The notes under the pieces were generated by a model. That model saw only the letters and a list, made by a program, of their open reading frames with translations, was not told where the DNA came from and did no database searches. 64,000 nucleotides of DNA from the NCBI GenBank assembly GCA_913062645.1, contig CAJXVW010000001.1:372001-436000 (forward strand). Direction: 5' to 3'. The DNA comes from an uncultured Mycoplasmatota bacterium. Lineage in GTDB: Bacteria > Bacillota_I > Bacilli_A > Izemoplasmatales > Izemoplasmataceae. Both the position numbers and the translations under genes were made by a program. Shown piece by piece: positions 48,166-62,395 of this stretch; position 1 is the first letter of the stretch, and every line of letters starts with the position of its first letter.

Positions 48166-49021
48166 ACGCGCCGTTATCGCAACCAGCACTGGTTGCCTCG
48201 ATTATCTGGATCTCGATCATGACAATCTCCGCATCTTGCGAATGAAAATCACCATCAACGAGGACACCCACGATGATTTCATCGGCATCACCGCCGATGA
48301 ATTCTACCGTCGCCTCAAAGAAGACGATTCGCTTGTCCCCACCTCGTCGATGCCGTCTCCGGGAGAACTCTACGAACTTCTCGACGAACTGGAAGGAGCG
48401 GGGTATGACGAGGTCTTCGTCATTACCATTTCAAGCGGTCTGTCCGGCACCTATGGAGTGTGTACCGCAGCGATGCAAAACTACGAAGGAAACCTGACGG
48501 TTCACGTCGTCGATTCCCGCAACGCAGCGATCAGCGAGGGATGGCTGTCACTCGAAACGCTCCGGCTCATTGCCGACGACGTTCCCAGCGCGGACATCCT
48601 CGCCTACCTGGAACGGATTCGCACCAGTCGCAAACAGTACTTCATGGTTGACAACCTGCGCTTGTTTGTAGCCAACGGTCGACTGTCCGGCGCGAGCGGC
48701 TTCATCGGTGGTTTGCTGAAGATCAAACCGATTCTCGAAGTCAACGACGAAGGCAAGATCGTGCCGTTCCAAAAGGTCCGCACGCAGAAACGCGCGCTCA
48801 AGGAAATGGTCGACATCGTGATCGCCGACCTGAACAAACTGAAGGATTTTGTCGTCACCTACGACACTTCCGACAACACCGAAGGCATCGCCTATGTCAA
48901 GGAGCGCATTGCCGAAGCATTTCCCAACTACAAGTACTTTGAAGCACCGATCACACCGGTCATCGGTTGTCATACCGGAATTGGAACGGTTGGTGTCGCG
49001 TACTTCGATTTATCCGAATGA
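48158..49021 (+). CDS. DegV family fatty-acid-binding protein (FakB-like), second copy
   Basis: 287 residues. The ATG at 48158, 9 bases after AAGGAG, is preferred to one at 48152. TISSGLSGTYGVC and ANGRLSGASGFIGGLLKIKP match the first copy in the window, and GCHTGIGTVGVAYFD closes the protein. Two FakB proteins with different acyl preference are usual in Bacillota. It overlaps the membrane protein gene by 8 bp and is followed by a strong terminator. Confidence 0.88.
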   Translation: MSKRAVIATSTGCLDYLDLDHDNLRILRMKITINEDTHDDFIGITADEFYRRLKEDDSLVPTSSMPSPGELYELLDELEGAGYDEVFVITISSGLSGTYGVCTAAMQNYEGNLTVHVVDSRNAAISEGWLSLETLRLIADDVPSADILAYLERIRTSRKQYFMVDNLRLFVANGRLSGASGFIGGLLKIKPILEVNDEGKIVPFQKVRTQKRALKEMVDIVIADLNKLKDFVVTYDTSDNTEGIAYVKERIAEAFPNYKYFEAPITPVIGCHTGIGTVGVAYFDLSE

Positions 49022-49022
49022 G

Positions 49023-49060
49023 GCAAACAAAAAAGGAACGCACGTTCCTTTTTTGTTTGC
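49023..49060 (+). terminator. Rho-independent terminator after the second degV
   Basis: An 18-bp perfect stem runs from 49023-49040 to 49043-49060 with the T-run inside its right arm. It is long enough to work in both directions. Confidence 0.9.
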
Positions 49061-49079
49061 TTGCCATGCGATTAAGTGA

Positions 49080-49085
49080 TACAAT
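49080..49085 (+). promoter_or_regulatory. Promoter -10 box of the Gx-family gene
   Basis: TACAAT with TGA directly before it (extended -10); TTGCTT at 49057-49062 lies 17 bases upstream. Confidence 0.45.
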
Positions 49086-49101
49086 AACATCGGTGATTTC
49101 C

Positions 49102-49596
49102 ATGAGAACGAAACGACTTACCCTGCTGGCGATCATGCTCGCCATCAGCATCGTTCTGTCGATTGTCGAATCCATGTTGCCCGTCATTCCCGTGCCGGGG
49201 GTGAAACTCGGACTCGCCAACGTCGTGACGCTGCTGATCATGTTCATCTATGGCGAGAAAGACGCCTTCATGATTTTGTTTCTGCGCATCGTCCTCGTTG
49301 GCCTGTTGCGCGGCAACATCTTCAGCGTGACCTTCTTCCTGTCGCTTTCTGGTGGCATGATGGCGTATCTGATGATGTTCCTGTTCAAACAGTTGAAAGT
49401 CTTCAGCATGGTCGGCATCAGCATCATGGGTGCCTTCGGGCATTCCGTCGGCCAGATTGTGATGGCGATCTTCCTGATCGAACGCGCCGAACTGATTTTC
49501 TATTTCCCGTACATCCTCGTCCTCTCGGTCATCACCGGCGTCATCACCGGACTGTTGGCGCTAAGGTCCCTGCAAATCATGAAAAAAGCCGTCTGA
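49102..49596 (+). CDS. Gx-transporter / heptaprenyl diphosphate synthase component I family membrane protein
   Basis: 164 residues, about five membrane helices. LTLLAIMLAISIVLSIVES, PGVKLGLANVVTLLIMF and LLRGNIFSVTFFLSLSGG are the conserved blocks of Hpre_diP_synt_I (PF07456), now often called Gx transporter. The ATG at 49102 has GGTGA ahead. In many Clostridia this family sits with NusG-domain-II proteins, ApbE and FMN-binding proteins, as on both sides here, so it may serve the flavin-based electron system, perhaps for quinone or flavin supply (inference). Confidence 0.82.
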   Translation: MRTKRLTLLAIMLAISIVLSIVESMLPVIPVPGVKLGLANVVTLLIMFIYGEKDAFMILFLRIVLVGLLRGNIFSVTFFLSLSGGMMAYLMMFLFKQLKVFSMVGISIMGAFGHSVGQIVMAIFLIERAELIFYFPYILVLSVITGVITGLLALRSLQIMKKAV

Positions 49597-49609: not shown

Positions 49610-50926
49610 TTACTTGTAGGTGTCATCAAGATACTGGGCTTCAAAACCATCACTGAAGACGATTTGATCGTCCATGGTATACCAGATCGCTTCAAGGTTG
49701 TCGATGCCGTTGACGAACGCCAGTCCATCAATGAGCGGCATCGTGAAGATCGCCGTCGAATAGATGTCGGCCAGCGCCGGATCGTCGGTGACGATGCTGA
49801 CGGATCGGCTGTAGCGCTCCGGCATCAAGGTGTTGGGGTTGATGATGTGATGGTAAATTTCGCCGTCGACTTCGTAATATTGTTGGTAATCGCCGCTCGT
49901 GACCAACTGGTCGCCAGCGCTCAGATAGACAGTCGCGTAATAACTGGTTTCAAAGGTCGGATCGGTAATCGCCAGCAGGAATTTGCCGTTTTCCCTTGTC
50001 GGGTGCGTACCGCCGATTGAGATGTTGCTTTCTCCGTTATTGAGAAGATACCCATGCAGATTCAGACCATCGAGGTACTCGATCAAAACCCTGGAAATGA
50101 AGCCTTTGGACATGCCACCGAGATCAAGCGACATGCCTGATTCCATCGTAATCGTGTGGTTGGTTTCATCCATCGTTATGCCGGCGGGATCAGTGAAGGC
50201 GTTTCTTGCCTGCAACTGTTCCATCGGCGGAACCTCGCAGACAGGATCAGTGAAGTTGGTAAGACATGATTCACGATAATCATGCCACAGCAACAGAACG
50301 GGTCCGAGGGCGATATTGAACAGATCATCGACCTCATCTTGATGATCGAGAGCGAATTGGATCATGTCGAACAATGGTTCGTCAATCACGTGAGTTGCCG
50401 TCGGATCGTCGTTGATCGTTTTCACATTCGTGACGTTATTGTAGTTGTTGTACTTGTCGCTGAGTTTGTGATAGTAGTCGAGTAGCAATTCAACATTGTC
50501 GAAGATGTTTGCAACAGCACCATTGTACGTGTCACCTTGGTAGTAGATGCGGAGTTTGACAACGGTATGCAGATACTGTGTCCAGAACACCTGGCATTCG
50601 GTGAGATCGGTGCCATCGATTACCGTGCATCCGTCTTCTCGATAATAGACGGTACGCGTGAGCGTCCGGACGTCCCCTTCATAGTCAAGAGTATACGTCA
50701 CCGTATAGTCTCCAGCTTGCGTCGGATCGATGTCGCTGTCAATCGTAACATACTCGGACAGGTCCTCGTTGTTGACCCTTGCCAAGAAACCTTTTTCAAC
50801 ATAATCAGAATCAACAGTATACGATACTTCTGATTCCCCGATTAAGTCAAAAATAAGTTCTTTACTGCATGCGGTCAAAGTAGTTGTGGTAATTACAATG
50901 AGTGCGATAATGATGAATTTCTTCAT
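49610..50926 (-). CDS. apbE: FAD:protein FMN transferase (ApbE) lipoprotein with N-terminal Ig-like domain
   Basis: 438 residues. Signal peptide with lipobox LTAC. Residues about 25-100 look like a bacterial Ig-like (DUF5011-type) beta sandwich; the catalytic ApbE domain occupies about 105-438. Key motifs are DLGGMSKGF, and LVTSGDYQQYYEVDGEIYHH with INPNTLMPER after it, the FAD- and metal-binding loops. ApbE attaches FMN through a phosphodiester bond to Thr/Ser of RnfG, RnfD and FMN-binding lipoproteins. All these targets are encoded within 10 kb here. The extra N-terminal domain is uncommon; usual ApbE is about 330 residues. Confidence 0.92.
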   Translation of the reverse strand: MKKFIIIALIVITTTTLTACSKELIFDLIGESEVSYTVDSDYVEKGFLARVNNEDLSEYVTIDSDIDPTQAGDYTVTYTLDYEGDVRTLTRTVYYREDGCTVIDGTDLTECQVFWTQYLHTVVKLRIYYQGDTYNGAVANIFDNVELLLDYYHKLSDKYNNYNNVTNVKTINDDPTATHVIDEPLFDMIQFALDHQDEVDDLFNIALGPVLLLWHDYRESCLTNFTDPVCEVPPMEQLQARNAFTDPAGITMDETNHTITMESGMSLDLGGMSKGFISRVLIEYLDGLNLHGYLLNNGESNISIGGTHPTRENGKFLLAITDPTFETSYYATVYLSAGDQLVTSGDYQQYYEVDGEIYHHIINPNTLMPERYSRSVSIVTDDPALADIYSTAIFTMPLIDGLAFVNGIDNLEAIWYTMDDQIVFSDGFEAQYLDDTYK

Positions 50927-50975: not shown

Positions 50976-51002
50976 AAAAAAACTGGGGCAACCCAGTTTT
51001 TT
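50976..51002 (-). terminator. Rho-independent terminator of the minus-strand FMN lipoprotein gene
   Basis: AAAAACTGGG / CCCAGTTTTT stem with 4-base loop; on the minus strand it is followed by T. It overlaps the stop codon of the gene at 51001-51639. Confidence 0.85.
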
Positions 51003-51639
51003 AGCTACCGTAGTTTGCTTCGTGATAGGCAAGCAACTCTTTCATGACGCGGATCATGTTGTTGGTGGACACGCTGCTTCCGGTGTAGTCATCAATGAGA
51101 TCCTGATCATCGATTGTCACGGTATTGCTGATGCCGTGATAATCGCTGTTCTTGAAGACTTGAATGCCTTCCAGATCTTCGAGTGTTTTACCGATCAGCC
51201 AGGGAATGAATTCCGTTTCGAAATCATCCAATGTTTTGCCGGTGGGCGTCGGGTCGCTGTCGCCCCACATGCCGGCGGTATAGTGGCCATCTTCGCCATC
51301 GTGACCAAAGGAGATGGTGAGTAGCTCATTGGTGTTCAAATCGATTTCTACATAGGCAACCTGCCAGTAATTGACATCGGCGTTGCGGCAAGTACAGGAC
51401 AAGTACGTGACCTGGTATTTGACATAGTCGCGCAGTTTGTACTCGAATAAAATGTATGCGTTCTTGGTGGTTTCATCACCATGTCCATTGAGATGGGTGA
51501 ACGGCATGGCGTTGTCGGCAACGACACCGCCGTTATTGGTTTCTCCTGTCACACATTCCGGACCAACGCAGAGTTCGCCACAAGCGGAAAGGGTCACAAC
51601 GAAAACCAATGTGAGGAGCAGTAGGCTCAATTTTTTCAT
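51001..51639 (-). CDS. Lipoprotein with FMN-binding-like C-terminus
   Basis: 212 residues. Lipobox LSAC at residues 17-20 and two nearby cysteine pairs. The C-terminal half shows DDYTGSSVSTNNMIRVMKEL, which resembles the flavinylation motif D-x2-[ST]-G-[AS]-[ST] of FMN_bind domains, directly before the amphipathic helix that follows it in RnfG. It lies between apbE and a rhodanese lipoprotein, so it is likely a flavin-carrying surface protein. The domain is weakly conserved before the motif. Ribosome site AAGGAGG on the minus strand. Confidence 0.65.
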   Translation of the reverse strand: MKKLSLLLLTLVFVVTLSACGELCVGPECVTGETNNGGVVADNAMPFTHLNGHGDETTKNAYILFEYKLRDYVKYQVTYLSCTCRNADVNYWQVAYVEIDLNTNELLTISFGHDGEDGHYTAGMWGDSDPTPTGKTLDDFETEFIPWLIGKTLEDLEGIQVFKNSDYHGISNTVTIDDQDLIDDYTGSSVSTNNMIRVMKELLAYHEANYGS

Positions 51640-51734: not shown

Positions 51735-52559
51735 TCAGTTTATGATTAATGTTTCAATTAACGCCAACAGATCGTCGTCGAAGCCAAGTTCGTATTCGAC
51801 GATATCATGGCTGCCACTGGTATTGGCCGTCATCATGAGGTCGTAGAGTTCATTCATCGTCATCGGGTGTGTAACGATGAACTCTTCCAGTATGGTCAAC
51901 TGGTCATTGTAGTTCGTCAGACCATCGTAGAAGGATCCTCTCAAGGTGCGATTGTCGCTATCGACGATATCAAAACGGATTGACGTGATGTACTTTCCCA
52001 AATCCAGTTCACCGCTGACAAAATAGCGTCGGTGTGTCGTCTCACTGAGAAAATCAGTGTAGAACATATCGCCGTATCGGTAATCACCAGTACCCAAAAC
52101 CTTGTATTCTCCCAAATACTCATAAAATCCGCCCAAAGAGAAAACTCGTTCGTATCCAAGATGCCACAACGCCGCCTGTACATACTCGCTGCGCATGCAG
52201 CCGTCTGCATACAGGAAAATTGCTTTGTCTTGTTTGAACAATCGTTCAAGCTCGTACTGGTCAATGATCTGTGAGGGTTCGAACGCGAACGTGTCTGAGC
52301 GCTCGAACACCCGGTAGTCCAGATAATCGAAAAAGGGGATCTGTTCGAATCCGTCGATGTATCCGGCAGCAAACTTGGCATCGAAATTACGCAAATCAAC
52401 GTACTGAACATCGTCACGGTACATGTATTCGTCCAGATTCTCCATCGTGATCACAGTTTCAGCCGTAATCGGCAACGGTTCGTCAACCGGTTCTTCAACA
52501 CACCCAAGCAGGCTAATCAAAGCCATTGGAACGACCAGGTAGAGTAATCTTTTCATCAT
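51735..52559 (-). CDS. Rhodanese-like lipoprotein with altered active-site loop
   Basis: 274 residues. The signal peptide ends in a lipobox LLGC. Residues about 38-155 are a rhodanese domain (DDVQYVDLRNFD, YIDGFEQIPFFDYLDY), clearly paralogous to the protein at 60792. Its active-site loop reads YADGCMRSEYV where the paralogue has MCGSGTRAGYV, so the canonical cysteine position is alanine and a cysteine sits three places later. The C-terminal region corresponds to the FMN-binding domain of the paralogue but lacks a recognisable TGxT-type attachment motif. It may be a diverged scaffold or sulfur carrier. The start could be one codon later. Confidence 0.8.
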   Translation of the reverse strand: MMKRLLYLVVPMALISLLGCVEEPVDEPLPITAETVITMENLDEYMYRDDVQYVDLRNFDAKFAAGYIDGFEQIPFFDYLDYRVFERSDTFAFEPSQIIDQYELERLFKQDKAIFLYADGCMRSEYVQAALWHLGYERVFSLGGFYEYLGEYKVLGTGDYRYGDMFYTDFLSETTHRRYFVSGELDLGKYITSIRFDIVDSDNRTLRGSFYDGLTNYNDQLTILEEFIVTHPMTMNELYDLMMTANTSGSHDIVEYELGFDDDLLALIETLIIN

Positions 52560-52689: not shown

Positions 52690-52734
52690 GTAATAGGTTA
52701 TATTTTTTTATATACAACTAGAGAGGTGAACACA

Positions 52735-53088
52735 ATGACAACAAAGTCGCAAGACGTAAACGCGTTGTTCGAACAGTGGATTCTTGATGCCGAAACGCGT
52801 CTTCAGGAAGAAGACATGTTCACAAAAATCAAGAGTTATCTGGAAAGCACGCACCCCGAAATCTGCGGCAAGTGCATCCCCTGTCGCGACGGCGTTCCCA
52901 AGTTGGAACGATTGTTCGACAAGTACATCCAAGGCGAAGCGACGCTCAAGGACCTGAAGGAAATCGAGCGCATCGTATATAACCTCCGGGCAAGCCGATG
53001 CAGCGTGGGGCTCGACATTGGCAAGAACATGGAAGTCATACTCGAAAACAACTACAATGTGCTGTACAGCCCCGTGAAAAAATACTAA
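52735..53088 (+). CDS. NuoF/HydB C-terminal-type 4Fe-4S protein, stand-alone
   Basis: 117 residues. The ATG at 52735 follows AGAGGTG; an in-frame GTG overlaps that site. Residues 25-115 correspond only to the last, iron-sulfur domain of NuoF or hydrogenase HydB: HPEICGKCIPCRDGVPKLERL supplies three cysteines and ASRCSVGLDIGKN the fourth. The NADH- and FMN-binding modules that make up most of NuoF (about 430 residues) are absent. It should be a small electron-transfer subunit. As first gene of the hydrogenase-Rnf operon it may bridge the hydrogenase and RnfC. Confidence 0.83.
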   Translation: MTTKSQDVNALFEQWILDAETRLQEEDMFTKIKSYLESTHPEICGKCIPCRDGVPKLERLFDKYIQGEATLKDLKEIERIVYNLRASRCSVGLDIGKNMEVILENNYNVLYSPVKKY

Positions 53089-53103: not shown

Positions 53104-54804
53104 ATGGCGAAGATAACCATCAACGGACAACTTGTCAAAGTCAAAAAAGGTACGACCATCCTCAGTGCCGCCCGACAGCTGGGAATTGACATTCCGACGC
53201 TCTGCTTTCTCGAAGAGATCAACGAGATCGGCTTCTGCCGCATCTGCGTTGTCGAAGTGGAAGGCGAGCAGGATCTCATATCGGCCTGTAATACCGAGAT
53301 CACCAATGGCATGGTGATTCAAACCGACAGCGACAAAGTCCGCCAATCTCGTGAAGCAACCCTGCAACTACTGGCGTCCCGCCACCGTTTCGATTGCTGG
53401 CGCTGCCCGAAAGACGGCATGTGCGAGTTCTACGACTTGCTCAAGTCACATGACGTCGTCTTTGAAGAATTTGGTCCTGGAATCGGACGCTCGAGCGATC
53501 TGATTGCTGGCTCAGGTATTTCACAAGACCAGAGCAAATGCGTCCTCTGCAAACGCTGCGTGGCCGTATGCCAGAACGTCGTCACCGCCAACGTCCTGAA
53601 GTTCCGCGACGACGACGATCCGATGAATCCCATCGTCAGTCCGACCCCCGGTCTCGCGTTTGACGATGCCGGCTGCATCTTCTGTGGCCAGTGCGTCAAG
53701 GCCTGCCCCACCGGCACCCTGTTCGAAACCGATCACACCAATGACGTTCTCACCTTCCTGAGAAACAAGGACGATCATGTCGTGGTCCAACTCGATACCC
53801 GTGTCAACGGCGCCATCGCCGAGTCCTTCGGATACGACATCGACACCCCGTTCGAAGAAACGTTCGGCAAGACCGTCAAGGCTCTTGAACTGCTTGGCTT
53901 TGACACCGTAACGACACTCGATTACGGCGAGGACTACCACGCTCGCGCAACCGCCGAAGAGCTGTTGAAGCGATTGGAAGACAAAGACAACCTGCCTCTG
54001 TTCACGTCGAGTTGTCCTGCGTCTACGCGGTTCCTCGAACTGTATGAGCCCGAACGTCTCGATCACATCGCGACGGTCAAGTCGCCCCATATCCTCCAGG
54101 GTTCACAACTCAAACACAAGCTGCTGAAACAGAAACCAGCCAACACAAAGGTCGTCACGCTCAGCTCGTGCACGGCCAAGAAATACGAACGGACCAGAGA
54201 AGAACTTGTCACTGCCGGCGTCGCCGACGTCGATACGGCCCTGACCGTCCGTGAAATCACCAAACTGATGAAGCAAAAAGGCATCGCTTATCGCAATCTT
54301 GAAGCGGCCACGCCCGATCCCGCAGTCACCTCCGAACATGTTGCGGTTCAGGGCGGCGTCCTCGTTGCCGTTCTCAATGCGGCGCACCAGATCAAGACCG
54401 GCGAACCGCTCGCGGAACTCACGTTCAAGCATGTTCACGGCGAGAAGGAAAGCGATGGATTCATCGAAGAAGCTACCGTCCAACTTGGCGAAGCCAAACT
54501 CAATGTGGCTCGCGTCATCGGCGGTGCGGCCTTCAAGGAACTCTTCGCCCGATCGAACAAGAAGAACTACCATCTGATTGAGTTCCTGATGTGCCCCGGC
54601 GGCTGTCTCAATGGCGGCGGCATGCCGATACACAAAAACTTGACAACCCACGAGGTCATCGCTCGACGCGAAACGAGTTACTGCGACGGCGGAACCGATC
54701 TGCCCCTCAGCAACCCCCTGCACAATCATCTCGTCGACGACAACTTCGCCGATGATCCAAGCATTCATACCGGGTACTCGCAAAAAGAGTACCGGAAGGA
54801 ATAG
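53104..54804 (+). CDS. [FeFe] hydrogenase catalytic subunit with variant H-cluster pocket
   Basis: 566 residues. Modular layout as in Clostridium CpI: 2Fe-2S domain (CFLEEINEIGFCRIC to SAC, residues 1-80), His-ligated cluster HRFDCWRCPKDGMC, two 4Fe-4S motifs (CVLCKRCVAVCQ and CIFCGQCVKACP), then the H domain. The four H-cluster cysteines are present: C304 in L1 (FTSSCPAS), C356 in L2 (LSSCTAKKYE), C497 and C501 in L3 (FLMCPGGCLNGGGMP). The proton-relay cysteine of CpI (C299) is Ser303 here, and the L1 tryptophan and L2 methionine-proline are also replaced by serine-type residues. So it may be a slow, sensory-like or reversible enzyme. No HydEFG maturase gene is in the window. Confidence 0.93.
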   Translation: MAKITINGQLVKVKKGTTILSAARQLGIDIPTLCFLEEINEIGFCRICVVEVEGEQDLISACNTEITNGMVIQTDSDKVRQSREATLQLLASRHRFDCWRCPKDGMCEFYDLLKSHDVVFEEFGPGIGRSSDLIAGSGISQDQSKCVLCKRCVAVCQNVVTANVLKFRDDDDPMNPIVSPTPGLAFDDAGCIFCGQCVKACPTGTLFETDHTNDVLTFLRNKDDHVVVQLDTRVNGAIAESFGYDIDTPFEETFGKTVKALELLGFDTVTTLDYGEDYHARATAEELLKRLEDKDNLPLFTSSCPASTRFLELYEPERLDHIATVKSPHILQGSQLKHKLLKQKPANTKVVTLSSCTAKKYERTREELVTAGVADVDTALTVREITKLMKQKGIAYRNLEAATPDPAVTSEHVAVQGGVLVAVLNAAHQIKTGEPLAELTFKHVHGEKESDGFIEEATVQLGEAKLNVARVIGGAAFKELFARSNKKNYHLIEFLMCPGGCLNGGGMPIHKNLTTHEVIARRETSYCDGGTDLPLSNPLHNHLVDDNFADDPSIHTGYSQKEYRKE

Positions 54805-54815
54805 AAGGTGACCAC

Positions 54816-56036
54816 ATGATAACCGAATACCGACAATATCTCGATCCGAAGAAAGTCTGGATCCCCCTTACCGACGGCACCTTCAAACTGGCCAGTGTCC
54901 AAGTCGAACAAGACGACGCCGTCACGGCCGGACAAATCGTCGCCTACAAGTACAGCGGCAAATTGAAGACGCCGGTCCTGGCATCGATCACCGGCACCGT
55001 CGTTGGGTTCGAAGAACGTCTCGACCGTTTCAACAAATACGTGGATCACATCGTCATCGAACGATCCGATTCCAACCAGATGATCACCCATGAAGGCCTG
55101 GACGACGATGTCCCGGCGGCCATCATCCGACAGCGCATCGAAGACTGCGGACTCCGTCAGTTCAACGTCGACGGCCTCTATACCGACATTGCATTCGAAC
55201 GACCCATCAAGCACATTCTCGTCAATGCCATCTACGCCAATGAACCGTTCATCTCAACGGACTACGATTTCGTCAAGCAACACGCCGAGTTGATTGCGGA
55301 TGGCATCAAGCTGTTGCAACACGCCGCGCATGCTGAAACAGCCACGCTGATCGTCGACAAGTACATGGACGAGCAAACCTTGGAAGCACTTGGCAAAGCC
55401 ACCGTCGACAAAGGCATCGAGGTCGTGCAAGTCAACACCAAGCATGTCAACGGATGGGATTACCGCATTGCCAAACAACTGGTTGGCGAAACGATTTCTC
55501 CCAATCTCATCGACAATCAGATTCTGTACACGTCCGCCTATGCGGCCAAGCACATTCACGATGCCGTCCGCAACGGTCGTCCGCTCATCGAGCGTCAAGT
55601 CGCCATCACCGGTGATGCGCTCCGCGTCAACGTGCTCTACGACGTGCGTCTCGGCACGCGCCTCGAAGATCTCGTCGACGATCTCGGCGGATACGACGAC
55701 GGCGGCACCTACATGTGTCACGTCGGCAGTTTTCTGTCCGGCGAACAGGTCGCCGCGGATTCCTTCAGCGTTACCGCGACCGTCGACACCATCGATGTCA
55801 GCGCGTATCGCCAGGAACCGGAAGAAGTCTGCATCAAATGCGGCGAGTGCAACGACATTTGCCCCGCCGGCATCCTACCACAGAACATCATGGATGCGGA
55901 ACTCCGCAATGTCAACGCCCGCATCGTCGATCTGCATACCGACGAATGCATCGAATGCGGTTTGTGCAGTTATGTCTGTCCCTCGAAAATCAACGTACTG
56001 GAATGGGTGCGGCGTGCCAAACGCCGCGTCGGATAG
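54816..56036 (+). CDS. rnfC: RnfC-like subunit lacking the NADH/FMN-binding loop
   Basis: 406 residues, a little short for RnfC. Both C-terminal 4Fe-4S motifs are intact: CIKCGECNDICPAGILP (from C339) and CIECGLCSYVCPS. The N-terminal barrel-sandwich domain (AGQIVAYKYSGKLKTPV) is also present. The region that should hold the glycine-rich flavin/NADH loop (canonical GLGGAxFPTHxK) reads GLRQFNVDGLYTDIAFERP at about residues 112-130, only the later NEPFISTDY remaining like the canonical ECEPYxTxDY. The second nucleotide motif (YPxGxEKQL, NNVGTA) is lost as well, as is GGPMMG (here GGTYMC). So it probably cannot use NADH. It follows the hydrogenase gene by 11 bases. Confidence 0.9.
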   Translation: MITEYRQYLDPKKVWIPLTDGTFKLASVQVEQDDAVTAGQIVAYKYSGKLKTPVLASITGTVVGFEERLDRFNKYVDHIVIERSDSNQMITHEGLDDDVPAAIIRQRIEDCGLRQFNVDGLYTDIAFERPIKHILVNAIYANEPFISTDYDFVKQHAELIADGIKLLQHAAHAETATLIVDKYMDEQTLEALGKATVDKGIEVVQVNTKHVNGWDYRIAKQLVGETISPNLIDNQILYTSAYAAKHIHDAVRNGRPLIERQVAITGDALRVNVLYDVRLGTRLEDLVDDLGGYDDGGTYMCHVGSFLSGEQVAADSFSVTATVDTIDVSAYRQEPEEVCIKCGECNDICPAGILPQNIMDAELRNVNARIVDLHTDECIECGLCSYVCPSKINVLEWVRRAKRRVG

Positions 56037-56045
56037 GAGGAAACC

Positions 56046-57146
56046 ATGGAATTTACAATGAAAAAGCCACCTATCATCAGCAACCAGCAACGTTCCTACA
56101 AACGCTCCTTGAGCTTGCACATCTCACTCATCATCGTCAGTCTGACGGCGATTTTCACCCGTGCCTTCATTGCCGTCCCCGAGGGCGAATCATGGGTCCC
56201 CGACCAGATGTTCAAGACATTCTTGATGTTGTTCACGGGAGCGCTCGTGAGCGTCCTCATCGAACTCGTCTACTCGATCAGCGAAGGCACCAGTCAGGAG
56301 TTCAGCGAATATCGCCGGCTCGTCGATCCGATCAACACCGGGTTGCTCATCGCGCTGTTGCTTCCGACATCGACGCCGATGTATGTCCTGATTCTGGCCG
56401 TCGCCGTCGGCGTGTACGTCGGCAAAATCGTGTTCGGTGGTTATGGCTATTACATCTTCAATCCGGCCTTGGTCGGAGTGCTGTTCGCCACCATATCGTT
56501 CGCCACTCAGATTGAGTACGGCGACACACCGCTCGTGCTCTTGAAACAAGCGATTGAAGGCCAATCCTATAACTTTGAACTGATCGATCTCGTCCTCGGC
56601 AACTATGTCGCCGTGGCGATCGGCAGCACCAGCGTCATCGTCTTGGGTGGCGTGTTCATCTATTTGTCCATTACCCGTGTCATCGATCTGCGACTGAGCG
56701 GCACGTTCGTGCTGGCGATTCTCATTATCAGCGCAATCGTCGGATTCGTCAACTTCGGAGGTGCGATGTGGAACTACGTCTTCGTCAACATGATCACCGG
56801 CTTGACGATGTTCGGCGCCGTATTCCTCGTCGCCGAAACCGTCAGCAGCCCCACCTCACGGGAAGCGAAACTGATTTACGCCGTCGTGATCGCGATCATG
56901 ACGATGATGGTCCGGATTCTCGGAACCGAAGTCGAAGGCGTCGTCTTCGCCGTGCTTTTGGGTAACATGCTGGCGCCGTTCTTGAACCGTACCGTCACCC
57001 GCAGCAACAAGAAACTGTTCATTCAAACCAGCGTAATCCTCGCGGTGGTTGTGCTTCTCACCGGCTTCGTCCTTGGCTTCATCCTGCAAGGACGGTTGAT
57101 TGAAGCCTTCGACGCGATGATTCAATGGGGAGGGATGATCGCATGA
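56046..57146 (+). CDS. rnfD: RnfD membrane flavoprotein subunit
   Basis: 366 residues with about nine or ten membrane helices. RnfD/NqrB core: VDPINTGLLIALLLPTSTP, GYYIFNPALVG, LVLGNYVAVAIGSTS and MWNYVFVNMITGLTMFGAVFLV. The FMN attachment site, canonical S/TGATPL, reads YGDTPL here, so the flavin-bearing threonine seems kept but the preceding residues have changed. Ribosome site TAGGAGG. RnfD carries covalent FMN and riboflavin in the membrane. Overlaps rnfG by 4 bp. Confidence 0.92.
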   Translation: MEFTMKKPPIISNQQRSYKRSLSLHISLIIVSLTAIFTRAFIAVPEGESWVPDQMFKTFLMLFTGALVSVLIELVYSISEGTSQEFSEYRRLVDPINTGLLIALLLPTSTPMYVLILAVAVGVYVGKIVFGGYGYYIFNPALVGVLFATISFATQIEYGDTPLVLLKQAIEGQSYNFELIDLVLGNYVAVAIGSTSVIVLGGVFIYLSITRVIDLRLSGTFVLAILIISAIVGFVNFGGAMWNYVFVNMITGLTMFGAVFLVAETVSSPTSREAKLIYAVVIAIMTMMVRILGTEVEGVVFAVLLGNMLAPFLNRTVTRSNKKLFIQTSVILAVVVLLTGFVLGFILQGRLIEAFDAMIQWGGMIA

Positions 57147-59050
57147 AACCAGTAAAAATCGTCGTAATGCTCCTGGTTGTCGTGCTCGTCTCATCGGTTG
57201 GCGTATACTTTGTCGAAAGCATCACCACGCCGATCATTGAAGACCGTCGCGCCCAGGAAATCGAAGAAGCATTGCAAAGCATATTCCCCGCCATCGACGG
57301 AACCACCGACACCGTCACCTCGGACACCGACGTTGATTTCGGCACCACCGGAATTACCGACGTACTCGTCATCCGTGATGGCGACGACAATGTCAAAGGC
57401 TATGTCTACACCATGACCTTCCGTGGGTTCTCCTCGGAGATCATCTATCTGGTCGGCATCGACGCCGCCGGGGCAATCACCGGCTATCAGACGCTCCAGC
57501 AGAATGATACCGCCGGATACGGCGCGCAAATCGCCGACGAAGAGAACTGGACCCAGTTCACGGGCATGTCAATCGAGACCGCCGGCAACGGCGACTTCGA
57601 CGGACTGGCCGGAGCCACGGTCACGACCAACGCATGGAAGTCTTCCTTTGAAACCCTCTTCAACTTCCATCTCGACACCTACGGCTACACGCCGATGACC
57701 GACGAACAACTGCTGCTGCAGAAGAAGCAGACACTTGTCGGCAATGATCTCACCATCGAGTCCTACACGCCGGATCTCGCGCCGGGCGACTACGGCATCA
57801 CCGCCGTTGACGTCGCCACCGACGGCACGGACAATCAGGCGGTCATCTATACCGTTGAGTTCGTTGGGTACAACGCCACCGGCAGCAACACCTATCTGAT
57901 TGCGTTCGACCTGGCGACCAATGAAGTGCTTGGCGGAACCGCCCTGTCGAGCGACGACACCGAAGGATTCGGTGCTCTAATTCTGGACAATGCCAACTGG
58001 GCGGATTTCCCCGGAATGAGCCTTGAAGATGCCGAAGACGGCAACTTCGACGGCATCGCGGGAGCGACCGTTACAACGCTGGCCTGGAAACAAAGTCTGG
58101 TCGACGTCGGCATGTTCCACCGCGTCGAGTTTCTCGGTGAAACGCCACGCACCGTCGAATCGCTGAGCGAACTGCTCTTCCCCGGAGCCGACCGCTTCAC
58201 CAACGTCACCAGTGAAAAGCCCTTCGGCACAATGATCGAGGGCGTCTATGACGTGTTCGACGATCTCGGTGCCAAACTGGGAACCGTCTACCACGTGCAG
58301 ACCATCGGTGCCAGTTACGCCGAACTCACGACCATCGAGTTCCTGATCGGCATCGACACCGCGGACAACTTCACCGGTTTCTACATGCTCGACGACTCGG
58401 AAACGCCGGGACGCGCCGACGCGTTCTACGCCGACGATTACGGCGATACCATCGAGGGTGTCGCGATCACCGATGATTATGAACTGGACGCCGTTGGCGG
58501 AAGCACGATTACGTACAACGTGATCACCGCGGCCATCGACGAGGTCGTCCATTATCATCAGACCAAATACATTCTCCTTCCGGAACGCATCATGGATGCA
58601 CTTGCGGAAGCATACCCCGGCGCCGTCTCGTTCGAGAGTGTCTACAGCGACTACGACTTCGACGCCACCATCAACAACCTGTACGCCGCCAAGGACGGCA
58701 GCGATGCCGTCATCGGTTACGTCTACTACGCCACCGCAACCGGATACTCCGGTAACATCATTGAATTCATGTGGGGCGTCGACAACAGCGGTGTCGCCCA
58801 GCAACTCTACATCATGAACGACACCCAGTCCTGGGACGACGCGACGTACGCCGGATACGACGGCGCGTTCGGTACCGATTTCAACACATCGACCTGGCTT
58901 GATCTGTTCGAGGGAGTGACCTTCCAGTCGATCCTCGACACCGAAGTCATCGATGCCGCCGGCGTGTCGACCACAACCGGTGGCATGAAAGTGTCGCTCG
59001 AACGAATCGCCCAATATCACGCCGATCAAAACGTAGGAGGTGCTAGCTGA
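57143..59050 (+). CDS. rnfG: Giant RnfG with four FMN-binding modules
   Basis: 635 residues, more than three times the usual RnfG (about 190). One N-terminal membrane anchor (about 5-25) is followed by four consecutive FMN_bind domains outside the cell. Their attachment motifs are GLAGATVTT (Thr159), GIAGATVTT (Thr309), AVGGSTITY (Thr455) and AAGVSTTT (Ser609), spaced about 150 residues apart. The first two are canonical and nearly identical in sequence; the third and fourth diverge but keep Gly and Thr/Ser. The ATG at 57143 follows GGGGAGGG; the frame extends 6 codons further up through that site. Four covalent FMN would make a flavin wire. Target of ApbE. Confidence 0.92.
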   Translation: MKPVKIVVMLLVVVLVSSVGVYFVESITTPIIEDRRAQEIEEALQSIFPAIDGTTDTVTSDTDVDFGTTGITDVLVIRDGDDNVKGYVYTMTFRGFSSEIIYLVGIDAAGAITGYQTLQQNDTAGYGAQIADEENWTQFTGMSIETAGNGDFDGLAGATVTTNAWKSSFETLFNFHLDTYGYTPMTDEQLLLQKKQTLVGNDLTIESYTPDLAPGDYGITAVDVATDGTDNQAVIYTVEFVGYNATGSNTYLIAFDLATNEVLGGTALSSDDTEGFGALILDNANWADFPGMSLEDAEDGNFDGIAGATVTTLAWKQSLVDVGMFHRVEFLGETPRTVESLSELLFPGADRFTNVTSEKPFGTMIEGVYDVFDDLGAKLGTVYHVQTIGASYAELTTIEFLIGIDTADNFTGFYMLDDSETPGRADAFYADDYGDTIEGVAITDDYELDAVGGSTITYNVITAAIDEVVHYHQTKYILLPERIMDALAEAYPGAVSFESVYSDYDFDATINNLYAAKDGSDAVIGYVYYATATGYSGNIIEFMWGVDNSGVAQQLYIMNDTQSWDDATYAGYDGAFGTDFNTSTWLDLFEGVTFQSILDTEVIDAAGVSTTTGGMKVSLERIAQYHADQNVGGAS

Positions 59051-59688
59051 TGGCCCGCAAACAGAAATCATTAAGTGATGTCTTCACCGCTGGCTTCTTC
59101 AAGCAGAATCCGGTCTTCGTACAATTTCTCGGCATGTGTCCGACGCTCGCCGTCACCGGCAGTGTCGAAAGCGCGATCGGGATGGGCGCGGGCGTCATCT
59201 TCGTCCTCGTGTTGTCGAATCTGATCATCTCGCTGATCCGCAGCGCCGTACCGCGCGAAGTCCGCATTCCGATCTACATCGTCGTCATCGCCTCGTTCGT
59301 GACGATGCTGGAAATGCTGATGAACGCATTTGTCCCCGATCTGGCGGCCCAGCTGGGAACCTTCCTCAGCTTGATCGTCGTCAACTGTCTGATTCTCGGC
59401 CGCGCCGAAGCGTTCGCTTCCAAAAACGGACCCGTGCGCAGCGTGCTGGACGGACTCGGCATGGGCATCGGGTTCACCGGTGGCATCACCTTGCTGGCGT
59501 TCTTCCGTGAACTGCTCGGCAAGGGATCAATCACCATCTGGGGCGATTTCGCCTTGAATCTGATTCCCAGCGACTTCCAGATCTCGATTCTCGTGGCTCC
59601 TGCCGGCGCGTTCCTCGTGTTCGGCATCCTTGTATCGCAGATCAACAAAATCAAACTCCGCCGTGCGGAGCAAGGCGAGGTGGCGTAA
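59050..59688 (+). CDS. rnfE: RnfE membrane subunit
   Basis: 212 residues, six membrane helices. The two half-membrane cysteine motifs that share a 2Fe-2S cluster with RnfA are present: FLGMCPTLAVTGS near residue 29 and VVNCLILGRAEAFAS near residue 115. The length and sequence are normal. The start overlaps the rnfG stop by one base, behind GTAGGAGG. It lies in canonical order (C-D-G-E-A-B). Confidence 0.95.
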   Translation: MARKQKSLSDVFTAGFFKQNPVFVQFLGMCPTLAVTGSVESAIGMGAGVIFVLVLSNLIISLIRSAVPREVRIPIYIVVIASFVTMLEMLMNAFVPDLAAQLGTFLSLIVVNCLILGRAEAFASKNGPVRSVLDGLGMGIGFTGGITLLAFFRELLGKGSITIWGDFALNLIPSDFQISILVAPAGAFLVFGILVSQINKIKLRRAEQGEVA

Positions 59689-59691
59689 TCC

Positions 59692-60303
59692 ATGGAATTC
59701 ATCGCAATCGCATTTGGCGCCATTTTCGTCAATAACGTCGTACTCAATCAGTTCTATGGTCTGTGCCCCTTTCTAGGGGTATCAACCAAGAAATCCAGCG
59801 CCTTCTCGATGGGCATGGCCGTTACTTTCGTCATCACGCTGTCGACGATGATTGCCTACACCATCTACAATCAGGTGCTCGTACCCAACAACATCGAATA
59901 TCTGTCCACGATCGTCTTCATCCTGGTCATCGCATCGTTCGTCCAGCTCGTGGAAATGGTCATCAAGAAATTCTCCAGCGCAATCTACAGCGCGCTCGGC
60001 GTGTATCTCCCGCTGATCACAACCAACTGCGCCGTGCTCGGGGTCGCCATCGACGTGACCGTCAACGGCACCGGTTCGCAGAAGTTGCTGATGGCCTCGG
60101 GCGTCGCACCGACCTTCTGGCAGGCGACCGTCTACGCCCTCGGCATCTCGCTCGGCTATGCGATCGTCATCTTCCTGTTCTCGGCGATTCGTGAAGAAAT
60201 GGACGCCTACCCGATCAAGAAGAACTGGCAAGGCATTCCGATCGCGCTCATCACCGCGTTCATCATGGCGATGATCTTTAGCGGATTCGGAGGGGTGATC
60301 TGA
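59692..60303 (+). CDS. rnfA: RnfA membrane subunit
   Basis: 203 residues, six membrane helices. Cysteine motifs YGLCPFLGVSTKK near residue 25 and TTNCAVLGVAID near 112 pair with those of RnfE. The family's FILVIASFVQLVEM helix is present. Normal length. Three bases separate it from rnfE and one base overlaps rnfB, so the membrane core of the complex looks complete and functional. Confidence 0.95.
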   Translation: MEFIAIAFGAIFVNNVVLNQFYGLCPFLGVSTKKSSAFSMGMAVTFVITLSTMIAYTIYNQVLVPNNIEYLSTIVFILVIASFVQLVEMVIKKFSSAIYSALGVYLPLITTNCAVLGVAIDVTVNGTGSQKLLMASGVAPTFWQATVYALGISLGYAIVIFLFSAIREEMDAYPIKKNWQGIPIALITAFIMAMIFSGFGGVI

Positions 60304-60608
60304 TGGTTGTCGTCATTGTATTGGCCGTTGTCATCAGTGTCGTCCTCGCGCTCCTCTTGTGGGGCGCCAGCGTGGTCTTCCATGTCGAGGAGGATCCGCG
60401 GCTGCAAGACATCATCGATTTGCTTCCCAATCAGAACTGCGGACTCTGCGGCAACCCCGGTTGCAAGGGGATGGCCGAGGCGATCCTCCGCGAGGACGCC
60501 AAACTGTCACAATGCAAGCCGGGCGACCAGGCAATGCGCGAAGACATTCGTGATTACCTGGCCGAGCATCCCAACGAAGCCGGCGAGTACGTGAAAGTCA
60601 AGATGTAA
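60303..60608 (+). CDS. rnfB: Minimal RnfB: membrane anchor plus one 4Fe-4S motif, no ferredoxin domain
   Basis: 101 residues, against 180-330 in usual RnfB. One membrane helix (about 2-24) is followed by the conserved LLPNQNCGLCGNPGCKGMAE and a fourth cysteine in SQCKPGD, the four-cysteine cluster of the RnfB hydrophilic domain. The two or more C-terminal CxxCxxCxxxCP ferredoxin clusters are missing. The gene ends with a normal stop codon followed directly by a terminator, and no cysteine-rich sequence follows in any frame, so this is not a fresh frameshift. Ferredoxin docking at RnfB is therefore doubtful. Confidence 0.92.
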   Translation: MVVVIVLAVVISVVLALLLWGASVVFHVEEDPRLQDIIDLLPNQNCGLCGNPGCKGMAEAILREDAKLSQCKPGDQAMREDIRDYLAEHPNEAGEYVKVKM

Positions 60609-60791: not shown

Positions 60792-61664
60792 TTACTCAGC
60801 TTGGCCGATTGCTTCTTCGAAGGCCAGTTTGAGACCATCAATCGATACGGTGACACCGGCGAAATCATCGAAATGTCCATCGGTGATTGCCCATGCATCG
60901 TCCCAACCTTGGTTGTCGAGGATGGCTTCAGCGAGGGTGTTCGCCTGGGTGAACCAGAAGTTTTCGCCGTCGGGGCTGGTATCCATGTCATATCCTTCGC
61001 CGAGAGCTTGCTTGGTGGTCCAGTATGAGTTGTCGGTCTCAGGATCGCGATCCGGATCTTTTTCATACAGGGCGTCGAGGATGACTTCTTCGATGCCGCC
61101 TTTTTCGTTGATGACGACGGTGGCCATGTAGCCGGAGTCTTCATCAAGACCGAAATAGGTGCCCGGGGTGTAGTCGCCTTTGACAAGCGGGTTCAGGGTG
61201 TATGATCCGTCGCCGAGGACTTTGTTGTCGCCCGTGTAGTCGGCGATGCCGCCAACGTTGTAGACGTTCTCGTATCCGAGTTCTTCGAGAGCGGCCATTA
61301 CATAGCCGGCACGGGTGCCGCTGCCGCACATCAAGAAGATCGTTTTGTCCATGTCGAACAGGGCGGTGAGGCCAGATTCGCTGAGGATTTCATCGGCTTC
61401 GAATTCCCAGTCGCCATCGCGAACGAGGATGCCTTCATACTCAAGATAATCGAAGAACGGGATGAATTCAAATCCTGCGATATATCCGGCGTTCATTTTG
61501 TCGTCGAAGTTGCGCAGATCAACATACTGGACGTCGGATCTACCGAGGTACTCATCGATGTTCTCCATGTCGACTTCGTCGGGAATGTCAGGCAGGTTGT
61601 TGCCGCATCCGGCGAGAGCCAATGTCAGAGCAAATGCTACAAACAATAATGCAAACTTTTTCAT
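60792..61664 (-). CDS. Lipoprotein with rhodanese and FMN-binding domains
   Basis: 290 residues. Lipobox LAGC (Cys20). Residues about 38-150 are a rhodanese domain with intact active-site loop MCGSGTRAGYV. Residues about 160-290 are an FMN_bind-like domain: strands around GYMATVVINEKGGIEEV and then DDFAGVTVSIDGLKLAF, whose AGVT matches the FMN-attachment site with a Thr. ApbE could flavinylate it. The combination suggests a surface protein that handles both sulfur and electrons, perhaps persulfide or polysulfide reduction. It is a paralogue of 51735-52559 and is driven by a perfect consensus promoter. Confidence 0.87.
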   Translation of the reverse strand: MKKFALLFVAFALTLALAGCGNNLPDIPDEVDMENIDEYLGRSDVQYVDLRNFDDKMNAGYIAGFEFIPFFDYLEYEGILVRDGDWEFEADEILSESGLTALFDMDKTIFLMCGSGTRAGYVMAALEELGYENVYNVGGIADYTGDNKVLGDGSYTLNPLVKGDYTPGTYFGLDEDSGYMATVVINEKGGIEEVILDALYEKDPDRDPETDNSYWTTKQALGEGYDMDTSPDGENFWFTQANTLAEAILDNQGWDDAWAITDGHFDDFAGVTVSIDGLKLAFEEAIGQAE

Positions 61665-61731: not shown

Positions 61732-61930
61732 ACCCTTTTCAAGGGTAAAAACACTTTTGTTAGGCCGAAAACCAATGATTAGCACACGAATTATTTCATT
61801 CTTTTTTTAGTTCGTGTAGAAACAAAAAGGACATAGATATATCGCATCTGATTTAATGAAAATAAACGAAATATTGACAATAAAAAAAGCAAGTCCAATA
61901 ATCAAAAATTACAACGATTTTGATGGGATG

Positions 61931-61939
61931 TGTTATAAT
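61931..61939 (+). promoter_or_regulatory. Extended -10 promoter of the NusG-II protein gene
   Basis: TGTTATAAT, a perfect extended -10 element, 28 bases ahead of the ATG at 61967. Confidence 0.55.
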
Positions 61940-61966
61940 GAATTAACAAGTTCATTGGGTGATATT

Positions 61967-62395
61967 ATGCGAAAATCGGATGTCATTCTGATCGCCGTGG
62001 TTCTGATTGTCGCTGTCGTAAGTTTCTTCGCGTTTCGCGAATTGACCAACGACAGTGCATTGGTCGATGGAACGGCCATCGTCTTCTATAATGATGAAAA
62101 AATACTCGAAATCGATCTTGCCGATGGTAATTATAAAGTTTTTAATGAGGATCGGATTTTGTCGATTGACGAAGACAACAAGTTGTATCACGTCGAAGGA
62201 TCGAACCCTTACGGCGTTCTTATTGAATACCAGGACAACCGGGTTCGCGTCATCGACGAGGAGAGTCCGCAACACATCTGTCGACAACAAGGCTGGACCA
62301 ACTCGCCATTGAATCCGCTGACGTGTCTGCCCAATAACATCATCATCGTCATCGAGGCCAAAGACGAGGATCTGCCCGATGACATCACCGGATAG
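61967..62395 (+). CDS. Membrane-anchored NusG-domain-II-like protein
   Basis: 142 residues. One membrane anchor (about 5-25) and an extracellular beta domain: GTAIVFYNDEKILEIDLADG, VRVIDEESPQHICRQQGW and CLPNNIIIVIEAKDE are the marks of the NusG_II (PF07009) family. The two cysteines around the ICRQQGW element are typical. The ATG at 61967 has GGGTGA ahead and lies behind the promoter; the in-frame extension upstream does not. Such proteins neighbour Gx transporters, ApbE and FMN-binding proteins and probably belong to the flavin electron system. The biochemical role is unknown. Confidence 0.82.
   Translation: MRKSDVILIAVVLIVAVVSFFAFRELTNDSALVDGTAIVFYNDEKILEIDLADGNYKVFNEDRILSIDEDNKLYHVEGSNPYGVLIEYQDNRVRVIDEESPQHICRQQGWTNSPLNPLTCLPNNIIIVIEAKDEDLPDDITG

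Follow-up and report, generated by a model that had tools for sequence, protein, structure and literature searches.

A second Rnf operon with a motif-depleted RnfC and a hydrogenase-like arm in Izemoplasma relatives suggests a rewired path for electrons out of the cell

The usual view of the Rnf complex is that of a fixed ferredoxin:NAD+ pump. With what does it exchange electrons when its RnfC lacks the flavin and NADH motifs? The question is raised by a gene at 54816..56036 (+ strand) of a 64,000-nucleotide stretch of DNA from an uncultured Mycoplasmatota bacterium (assembly GCA_913062645.1, contig CAJXVW010000001.1, positions 372,001 to 436,000), here called the window. A sequence-only reading had described its product as an RnfC in which the glycine loop is replaced and the YPxGxEKQL, NNVGTA and GGPMMG motifs are gone while the RnfC frame and both 4Fe-4S motifs remain, and had proposed that the electron partner was switched, as opposed to random decay. 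We have analyzed the protein by alignment, profile search and structure prediction.

The gene is a single open frame of 406 aa, and we refer to its product as the variant RnfC. It can be aligned end to end with three solved RnfC chains (9eri_C, 7zc6_C and 8ahx_C, with E values of 4e-35, 9e-29 and 5e-27 respectively), and profile searches against the same chains give E values of 6e-54 to 1e-33. The motifs can therefore be compared in register. The RnfC family model TIGR01945 matches at E 1.9e-56, with a score of 191.5 bits that is below its curated cut-off of 245.95. Sequence and fold identify the protein as an RnfC, but the FMN/NADH motifs (G.GG..FPT, ECEP, YPQG and GGPMMG) are all absent. At residues 112-127 the sequence GLRQFNVDGLYTDIAF is found in place of GLGG..FPTH.K, and the replacement of the FMN/NADH glycine loop as a whole, GLRQFNVDGLYTDIAFERP, occupies residues 112-130 (55149..55205, + strand). 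The loop is not merely gone; VDG[LI][YF]T substitutes for it, with D119, G120 and T123 invariant in the family alignment. Elsewhere HVNGWDYRI lies at the position of YPQG.EKQL, TSAYAA at that of NVGTA, VGSFLSG at that of GGPMMG, and N-E-P-F at that of the paired E-C-E-P-Y. The in-register alignment thus bears out the combined loss of motifs that had been read from the sequence.

At the C-terminus the two 4Fe-4S motifs CIKCGECNDICP and CIECGLCSYVCP (residues 339-388; 55830..55979, + strand) are intact, with invariant cysteines at 339, 342, 345 and 349, and at 378, 381, 384 and 388. This Fe-S part has a mean identity of 84% among orthologs. The AlphaFold model has a mean pLDDT of 76, falling below 50 in the Fe-S region at residues 334-406, and matches the NADH-bound RnfC of A. 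woodii (9eri_C) with Z 33.0 and an rmsd of 3.0 Å over 333 residues. Alignment, invariant cysteines and predicted fold agree that the RnfC frame and both cluster motifs have been kept, as had been claimed.

The same replacement of the loop is found in all 17 full-length members of the family (the window protein included) and in three proteins of another family, while all 28 ordinary RnfC proteins sampled across the order and class keep G.GG..F, so that it is not the result of chance or of a frame error. In the RnfC tree the ordinary proteins are split from all flavin-less forms with a support of 0.84. Of 49 genomes in the GTDB family to which the window genome belongs, 18 carry window-type RnfC; many of the sampled genomes are metagenome assemblies. 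According to a scan of named genomes, the carriers are Candidatus Izemoplasma/Izimaplasma and related Mycoplasmatota, with distant orthologs in another family of the class (genomes G103, G124 and G113); no relatives were found on the viral contigs searched. For those pairs in which dS is unsaturated, dN/dS is at most 0.44 in all regions of the protein, and is lowest in the Fe-S part. The window genome (G000; 1.99 Mb in 2 contigs) encodes a second RnfC at C1:616123-617358, in which the loop GLGGSGFPTHIK, YPQGWE and GGPMMG are intact. Purifying selection, occurrence in about 20 species, the invariant loop and the intact paralog together give good support to a switch of partner, and the loss of the flavin motifs is an old, selected trait.

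The gene lies third in an operon on the + strand with the order NuoFc, HydA, RnfC, RnfD, RnfG, RnfE, RnfA, RnfB. This order is constant in 16 loci of the family as far as the contigs extend, and also in L100, L101/L075 and L102. NuoFc (52726..53088; 120 aa; PF10589, E 1.7e-13) is a stand-alone C-terminal 4Fe-4S (N3/B1) domain of NuoF/HydB without the flavin domain. It aligns with residues 473-535 of HydB in the T. maritima HydABC complex, the domain that contacts HydA, and its four cysteines are conserved in 19 of 19 orthologs. HydA (53104..54804; 566 aa) is an [FeFe]-hydrogenase-like subunit in which the N-terminal Fe-S domains are intact and the H-cluster pocket is degraded. Its closest solved chain is HydA1 (7q4v_A, E 7e-94), of the HydABC type.

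Downstream, RnfD (56046..57146; 366 aa) contains PF03116 only (E 3e-54); in its covalent-FMN motif GDTPLVLLK the Thr is kept and the SGA is lost. RnfG (57125..59050) matches TIGR01947 in four stretches, and a motif scan finds four FMN-binding repeats, AGATVTT, AGATVTT, GGSTITY and AGVSTTT. Both [2Fe-2S] cysteines are present in RnfE (59050..59688) and in RnfA (59692..60303), and the cluster ligands of both are invariant in 14 of 14 orthologs. RnfB (60303..60608; PF04060) is only 101 aa long, comprising a transmembrane helix and a single 4Fe-4S (B8-type) domain without the polyferredoxin part; its four cysteines are conserved among the orthologs (13 of 13). An RnfB of 101 aa with the B8 domain only is likewise encoded with the ordinary Rnf of this genome (L061 10502-10807), and this rules out loss of the ferredoxin part as a specific mate of the change in RnfC.

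The operon can be compared with two of the closest known systems. It shares with the NAD-dependent Rnf complexes of A. woodii, C. tetanomorphum and A. vinelandii the fold and two 4Fe-4S motifs of RnfC, the RnfD, G, E, A and B neighbours, and the cysteine ligands of the [2Fe-2S] clusters in RnfA and RnfE and of the B8 cluster in RnfB. It differs from them in an RnfC without flavin and NADH motifs, an RnfB without the polyferredoxin part, a four-FMN RnfG, and the presence of HydA and NuoFc. With the electron-bifurcating [FeFe] hydrogenases of the HydABC/Bfu type it has in common HydA and the 4Fe-4S (B1) domain of HydB. However, these carry an FMN-bearing HydB (BfuB) together with HydC (BfuC), whereas the operon holds the isolated B1 domain only, with the variant RnfC in their place and a degraded H-cluster pocket; the NuoEF set of the genome is unlinked.

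In the window HydA the H-cluster motifs read TSSCP, SSCT and VAVQGG, the last instead of the FGATGG loop. Of the features of group A [FeFe] hydrogenases the four ligand cysteines (CCCC) are present, but the proton-relay cysteine and the FGATGG loop are lost. The fold of the H-domain is still predicted, with Z about 40 against [FeFe] hydrogenases; residues 120-209, in the Fe-S region of the model, have pLDDT below 50. Six of 17 family members retain an intact pocket (TSCCP, MPCT, FGA[SA]GG and the L3 cysteines), while three of the ligand cysteines are lost in L047 and all four in L102. Degraded forms occupy at least five separate positions in a FastTree phylogeny, in which one deep node has a support of 0.01, so that the number of losses is approximate. 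Mean identity among orthologs is 75% in the N-terminal Fe-S domains and 47% in the H-domain. Two close pairs in which one member is degraded (L043-L044 and L051-L052) give dN/dS values of 0.23 and 0.33 for the H-domain, as against 0.06-0.14 for three pairs in which both members are intact. Repeated loss of the H-cluster with conservation of the Fe-S domains argues that it is the Fe-S path of HydA that is constant, not H2 chemistry. Because the loss has occurred independently at least five times, including in the window, H2 is not an obligatory donor. The degraded pocket motifs make a plain working hydrogenase untenable for the window protein. In six loci (L100, L101, L075, L114, L116 and L117) TSCSP replaces TSCCP in motif L1 with the other H-cluster motifs mostly intact.

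Structural work has placed the clusters of RnfC between its own FMN and the flavin of RnfD (PMC11889175, PMC12174285), and the B1 (N3) cluster of HydB-like proteins passes electrons to HydA, as in transfer between BfuB and BfuA (PMC9304861). Loss of the FMN together with the addition of a free B1 domain and HydA is what would be expected of direct electron transfer from HydA to the RnfC clusters. We favor a reading, with chances that we put at about even, in which the variant RnfC of the second Rnf has no flavin and acts as a one-electron Fe-S adaptor that connects a HydABC-derived arm with RnfD and the outer flavins. Its NuoF-like flavin domain would no longer handle NADH, and would probably serve as a docking platform for HydA, bridged by NuoFc, the stand-alone version of the 4Fe-4S domain by which NuoF/HydB is connected with NuoG/HydA in complex I and HydABC. 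The path of the electrons would lead from the Fe-S clusters of HydA through NuoFc and both clusters of RnfC to the RnfD flavins, the multi-FMN RnfG and finally the outer flavin and rhodanese lipoproteins. Where an ortholog has kept its H-cluster intact, H2 would be the natural donor. The degraded pocket of the window species makes it more likely that its HydA relays electrons through Fe-S clusters, receiving them from ferredoxin or from an NADH-oxidizing NuoEF/HydA-like module; such a module lies in the same gene cluster in genome G091 and on another contig in the window genome. From this arrangement we infer a physical complex, and the direction of flow, donor and acceptor given here.

A broader proposal is somewhat more tentative: that this Rnf represents a class of its own. 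Its NADH module would have been swapped for the HydABC-derived arm, with HydA docked on the variant RnfC via the free NuoF 4Fe-4S domain; the machine would be driven by H2 or ferredoxin, would possibly pump ions and would send electrons to outer multi-flavin and rhodanese lipoproteins, and the H-cluster would repeatedly have been discarded with other donors taking its place. RnfA, RnfE and RnfB, with their clusters kept, could still pump Na+ or H+. The retention of these pumping subunits, needless for a pure outward wire, counts against an outward conduit, and the low pLDDT of the Fe-S regions and the weak FMN_bind matches of the lipoproteins (below) count against the adaptor. The RnfD of the outgroup family lacks the Thr of the covalent-FMN motif, which also counts against the adaptor.

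Loss of the NADH-handling part, with a hydrogenase-derived protein and surface flavoproteins as neighbours, suggests that the second Rnf is a rewired machine passing electrons out of the cell. Upstream are a small PF07456/ECF-type membrane transporter, heptaprenyl-diphosphate-synthase-I-like (48967..49596, + strand; Pfam E 1.6e-39), and ApbE, an FAD:protein FMN transferase lipoprotein and conserved operon neighbour (49610..50926, − strand; NF007774 at E 9e-12, under its cut-off). The PF07456 gene lies beside ApbE in most of the variant and short-type loci that extend that far. Next is a Cys-rich surface lipoprotein (51001..51639, − strand) with an invariant CTCR in the ortholog alignment and an FMN_bind-like tail, TGSSVSTNN; the tail resembles the RnfG flavinylation site weakly (hhalign E 4e-4 over 30 columns), and Pfam FMN_bind matches weakly in 2 of 11 members. 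There are two rhodanese-like lipoproteins, the first (51735..52559, − strand; PF00581) upstream and the second (60792..61664, − strand), with an MCGSGTR loop and PF00581 in 8 of 8 orthologs, downstream. An FMN_bind fold in the latter finds no support in profile comparison, and with Pfam only one of the 8 members matches (E 0.003). Finally there is a NusG_II-domain protein with an N-terminal hydrophobic stretch (61856..62395, + strand; PF07009, E 2e-16).

Orthologs of the NusG_II protein adjoin both full and minimal loci; the NusG_II and PF07456 flanks are absent from L100 and L111 within the DNA examined, which counts against the adaptor reading. In the minimal loci (L053-L058, from related genera) a shorter flavin-less RnfC of about 380 aa, also without part of the glycine loop, lies with RnfD between the PF07456/ApbE and NusG_II genes, with no RnfABEG or HydA beside the pair. 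That the same neighbours enclose this pair argues that the common core consists of flavin-less RnfC and RnfD, and that the two form a conduit leading out of the cytosol to the exterior.

ApbE, PF07456 and an FMN-binding extracytosolic protein, here RnfG, thus lie in one cluster, as in loci for flavin-based extracellular electron transfer. The Listeria-type loci share with the window ApbE and also PF07456 (EetB-type) and NusG_II (EetA-type) proteins. Their input is Ndh2 and quinone, whereas in the window it would be Rnf and HydA. The terms EetA, EetB and NusG had no match in the papers searched for them.

An Rnf that does without NAD has a precedent. That of Methanosarcina acetivorans is reported not to interact with NAD or NADP, and its RnfC is a proposed electron relay (PMC4023990); by description it resembles the system proposed for the window in its NAD independence, RnfC relay and outward multi-cofactor partner, but the partner is a c-type cytochrome, and HydA and NuoFc do not appear in that description. 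Multi-flavinylated RnfG and half-Rnf (NQR/RNF-like two-subunit) systems have also been described (Meheust 2021, PMC8238504). They share the idea of single-path outward transfer, a multi-FMN RnfG and an ApbE neighbour, but their RnfD carries a fused NqrF domain that binds NAD. No such fusion is seen in the window RnfD, where the input would be Fe-S clusters of the variant RnfC type. A term search of that paper for RnfC, hydrogenase and rhodanese found none. 'Two Rnf complexes' are mentioned without detail in Izimaplasma ZiA1, HR1 and HR2 (PMC6256511). The thiosulfate-induced cluster of strain zrk13 was considered as support and dropped, since it is described as a xanthine-dehydrogenase/nucleotide cluster (PMC8397711). 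No description of the HydA-NuoFc-RnfC arrangement was found in the literature searched, and to that extent it appears to be new, whereas Rnf without NAD use and multi-flavin RnfG were known already.

Could the flow be in the opposite direction? In an energy-converting hydrogenase, an [FeFe] counterpart of Ech, electrons from ferredoxin would pass through RnfB, RnfA/E, RnfG, RnfD and the variant RnfC to NuoFc and HydA, giving H2 and ion pumping. All clusters of the pumping path are kept, the pocket is intact in six orthologs, and among solved structures HydA is closest to HydABC-type enzymes. But this is impossible in the window species and the 10 other degraded family members, where the relay cysteine and pocket are lost; in CaHydA replacement of the relay cysteine by serine (C298S) severely impairs activity (PMC3485046). 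Nor does it explain the multi-FMN RnfG and the ApbE/PF07456/NusG_II flanks, and we regard it as unlikely.

Slightly less probable again is that NADH is the real donor, through a separate NuoE/NuoF/HydA-like module docking on HydA, NuoF having replaced the site on RnfC. Genome G091 unites in one cluster (L111 5785-15949) cydAB, a ferric-reductase-like protein, the variant RnfC, HydA, NuoFc, a second HydA, NuoF, NuoE and RnfBAEGD. The NuoF loop GRSGGAFPTG is intact, both HydA proteins are degraded, and the second, without an H-cluster, groups (0.99) with the product of C2:426544-428280 in the window genome, which is encoded together with NuoE and NuoF. The latter protein is found in 16 of 18 genomes with the variant RnfC and 1 of 31 without (both in 16 genomes, one only in 3, neither in 30; Fisher p 7e-10). 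However, its gene set and the Rnf operon are unlinked in Izemoplasma, its orthologs in many cases retain an H-cluster that is partial or of the TSCSP type, and the co-occurrence tracks related genera, so that common descent may account for part of it. We note that this set (C2:421424-428280; L059 3424-10280) is HydABC-like, with a HydA that lacks all four H-cluster cysteines and a NuoF with an intact FMN loop.

The variant RnfC might still bind FMN, and perhaps NADH, by other residues in a remodelled pocket. The fold is that of the NADH-bound protein, and N142-E143-P144-F145, adjoining the old pocket, are invariant in the family alignment. Yet the glycine-loop, YPQG, NVGTA and GGPMMG positions have all changed together in 20 species, and the short relatives have lost part of the loop too; we consider this improbable. 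That the protein is a structural relic with no electron role is a good deal harder to accept. NqrA is an RnfC homolog that has lost its flavin and is cofactor-free (PMC12174285), and the model of the variant RnfC matches it with Z 24.6, but NqrA is also without 4Fe-4S clusters, whereas conservation in the variant RnfC is highest at the eight cysteines and around them. Random decay of a paralog made redundant by the second, intact Rnf is ruled out by purifying selection, the lack of internal stops and conservation of the operon in about 20 species.

The adaptor reading thus keeps the partner switch of the sequence-only reading, which had missed its context: HydA, NuoFc, the four-flavin RnfG, the short RnfB, the second Rnf, and ApbE, PF07456 and NusG_II. 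The locus suggests that the NADH end of Rnf is exchangeable, and that a hydrogenase-type arm can be attached to Rnf by the docking logic that NuoF/HydB follows in complex I and HydABC. Since the H-cluster is intact in some orthologs and broken in others, the exchange of modules is directly testable, and cultured members of the Izemoplasma group exist. The locus would also provide a plausible route for disposal of electrons outside the cell in wall-less sediment bacteria related to Izemoplasma.

The window genome contains a third Rnf-like set, with RnfD, RnfG, RnfE, RnfA and a short RnfB but no RnfC (C1:605829-611252; L077 9829-14999 and L061 1-1252), which lies directly behind the cytochrome bd genes cydAB.
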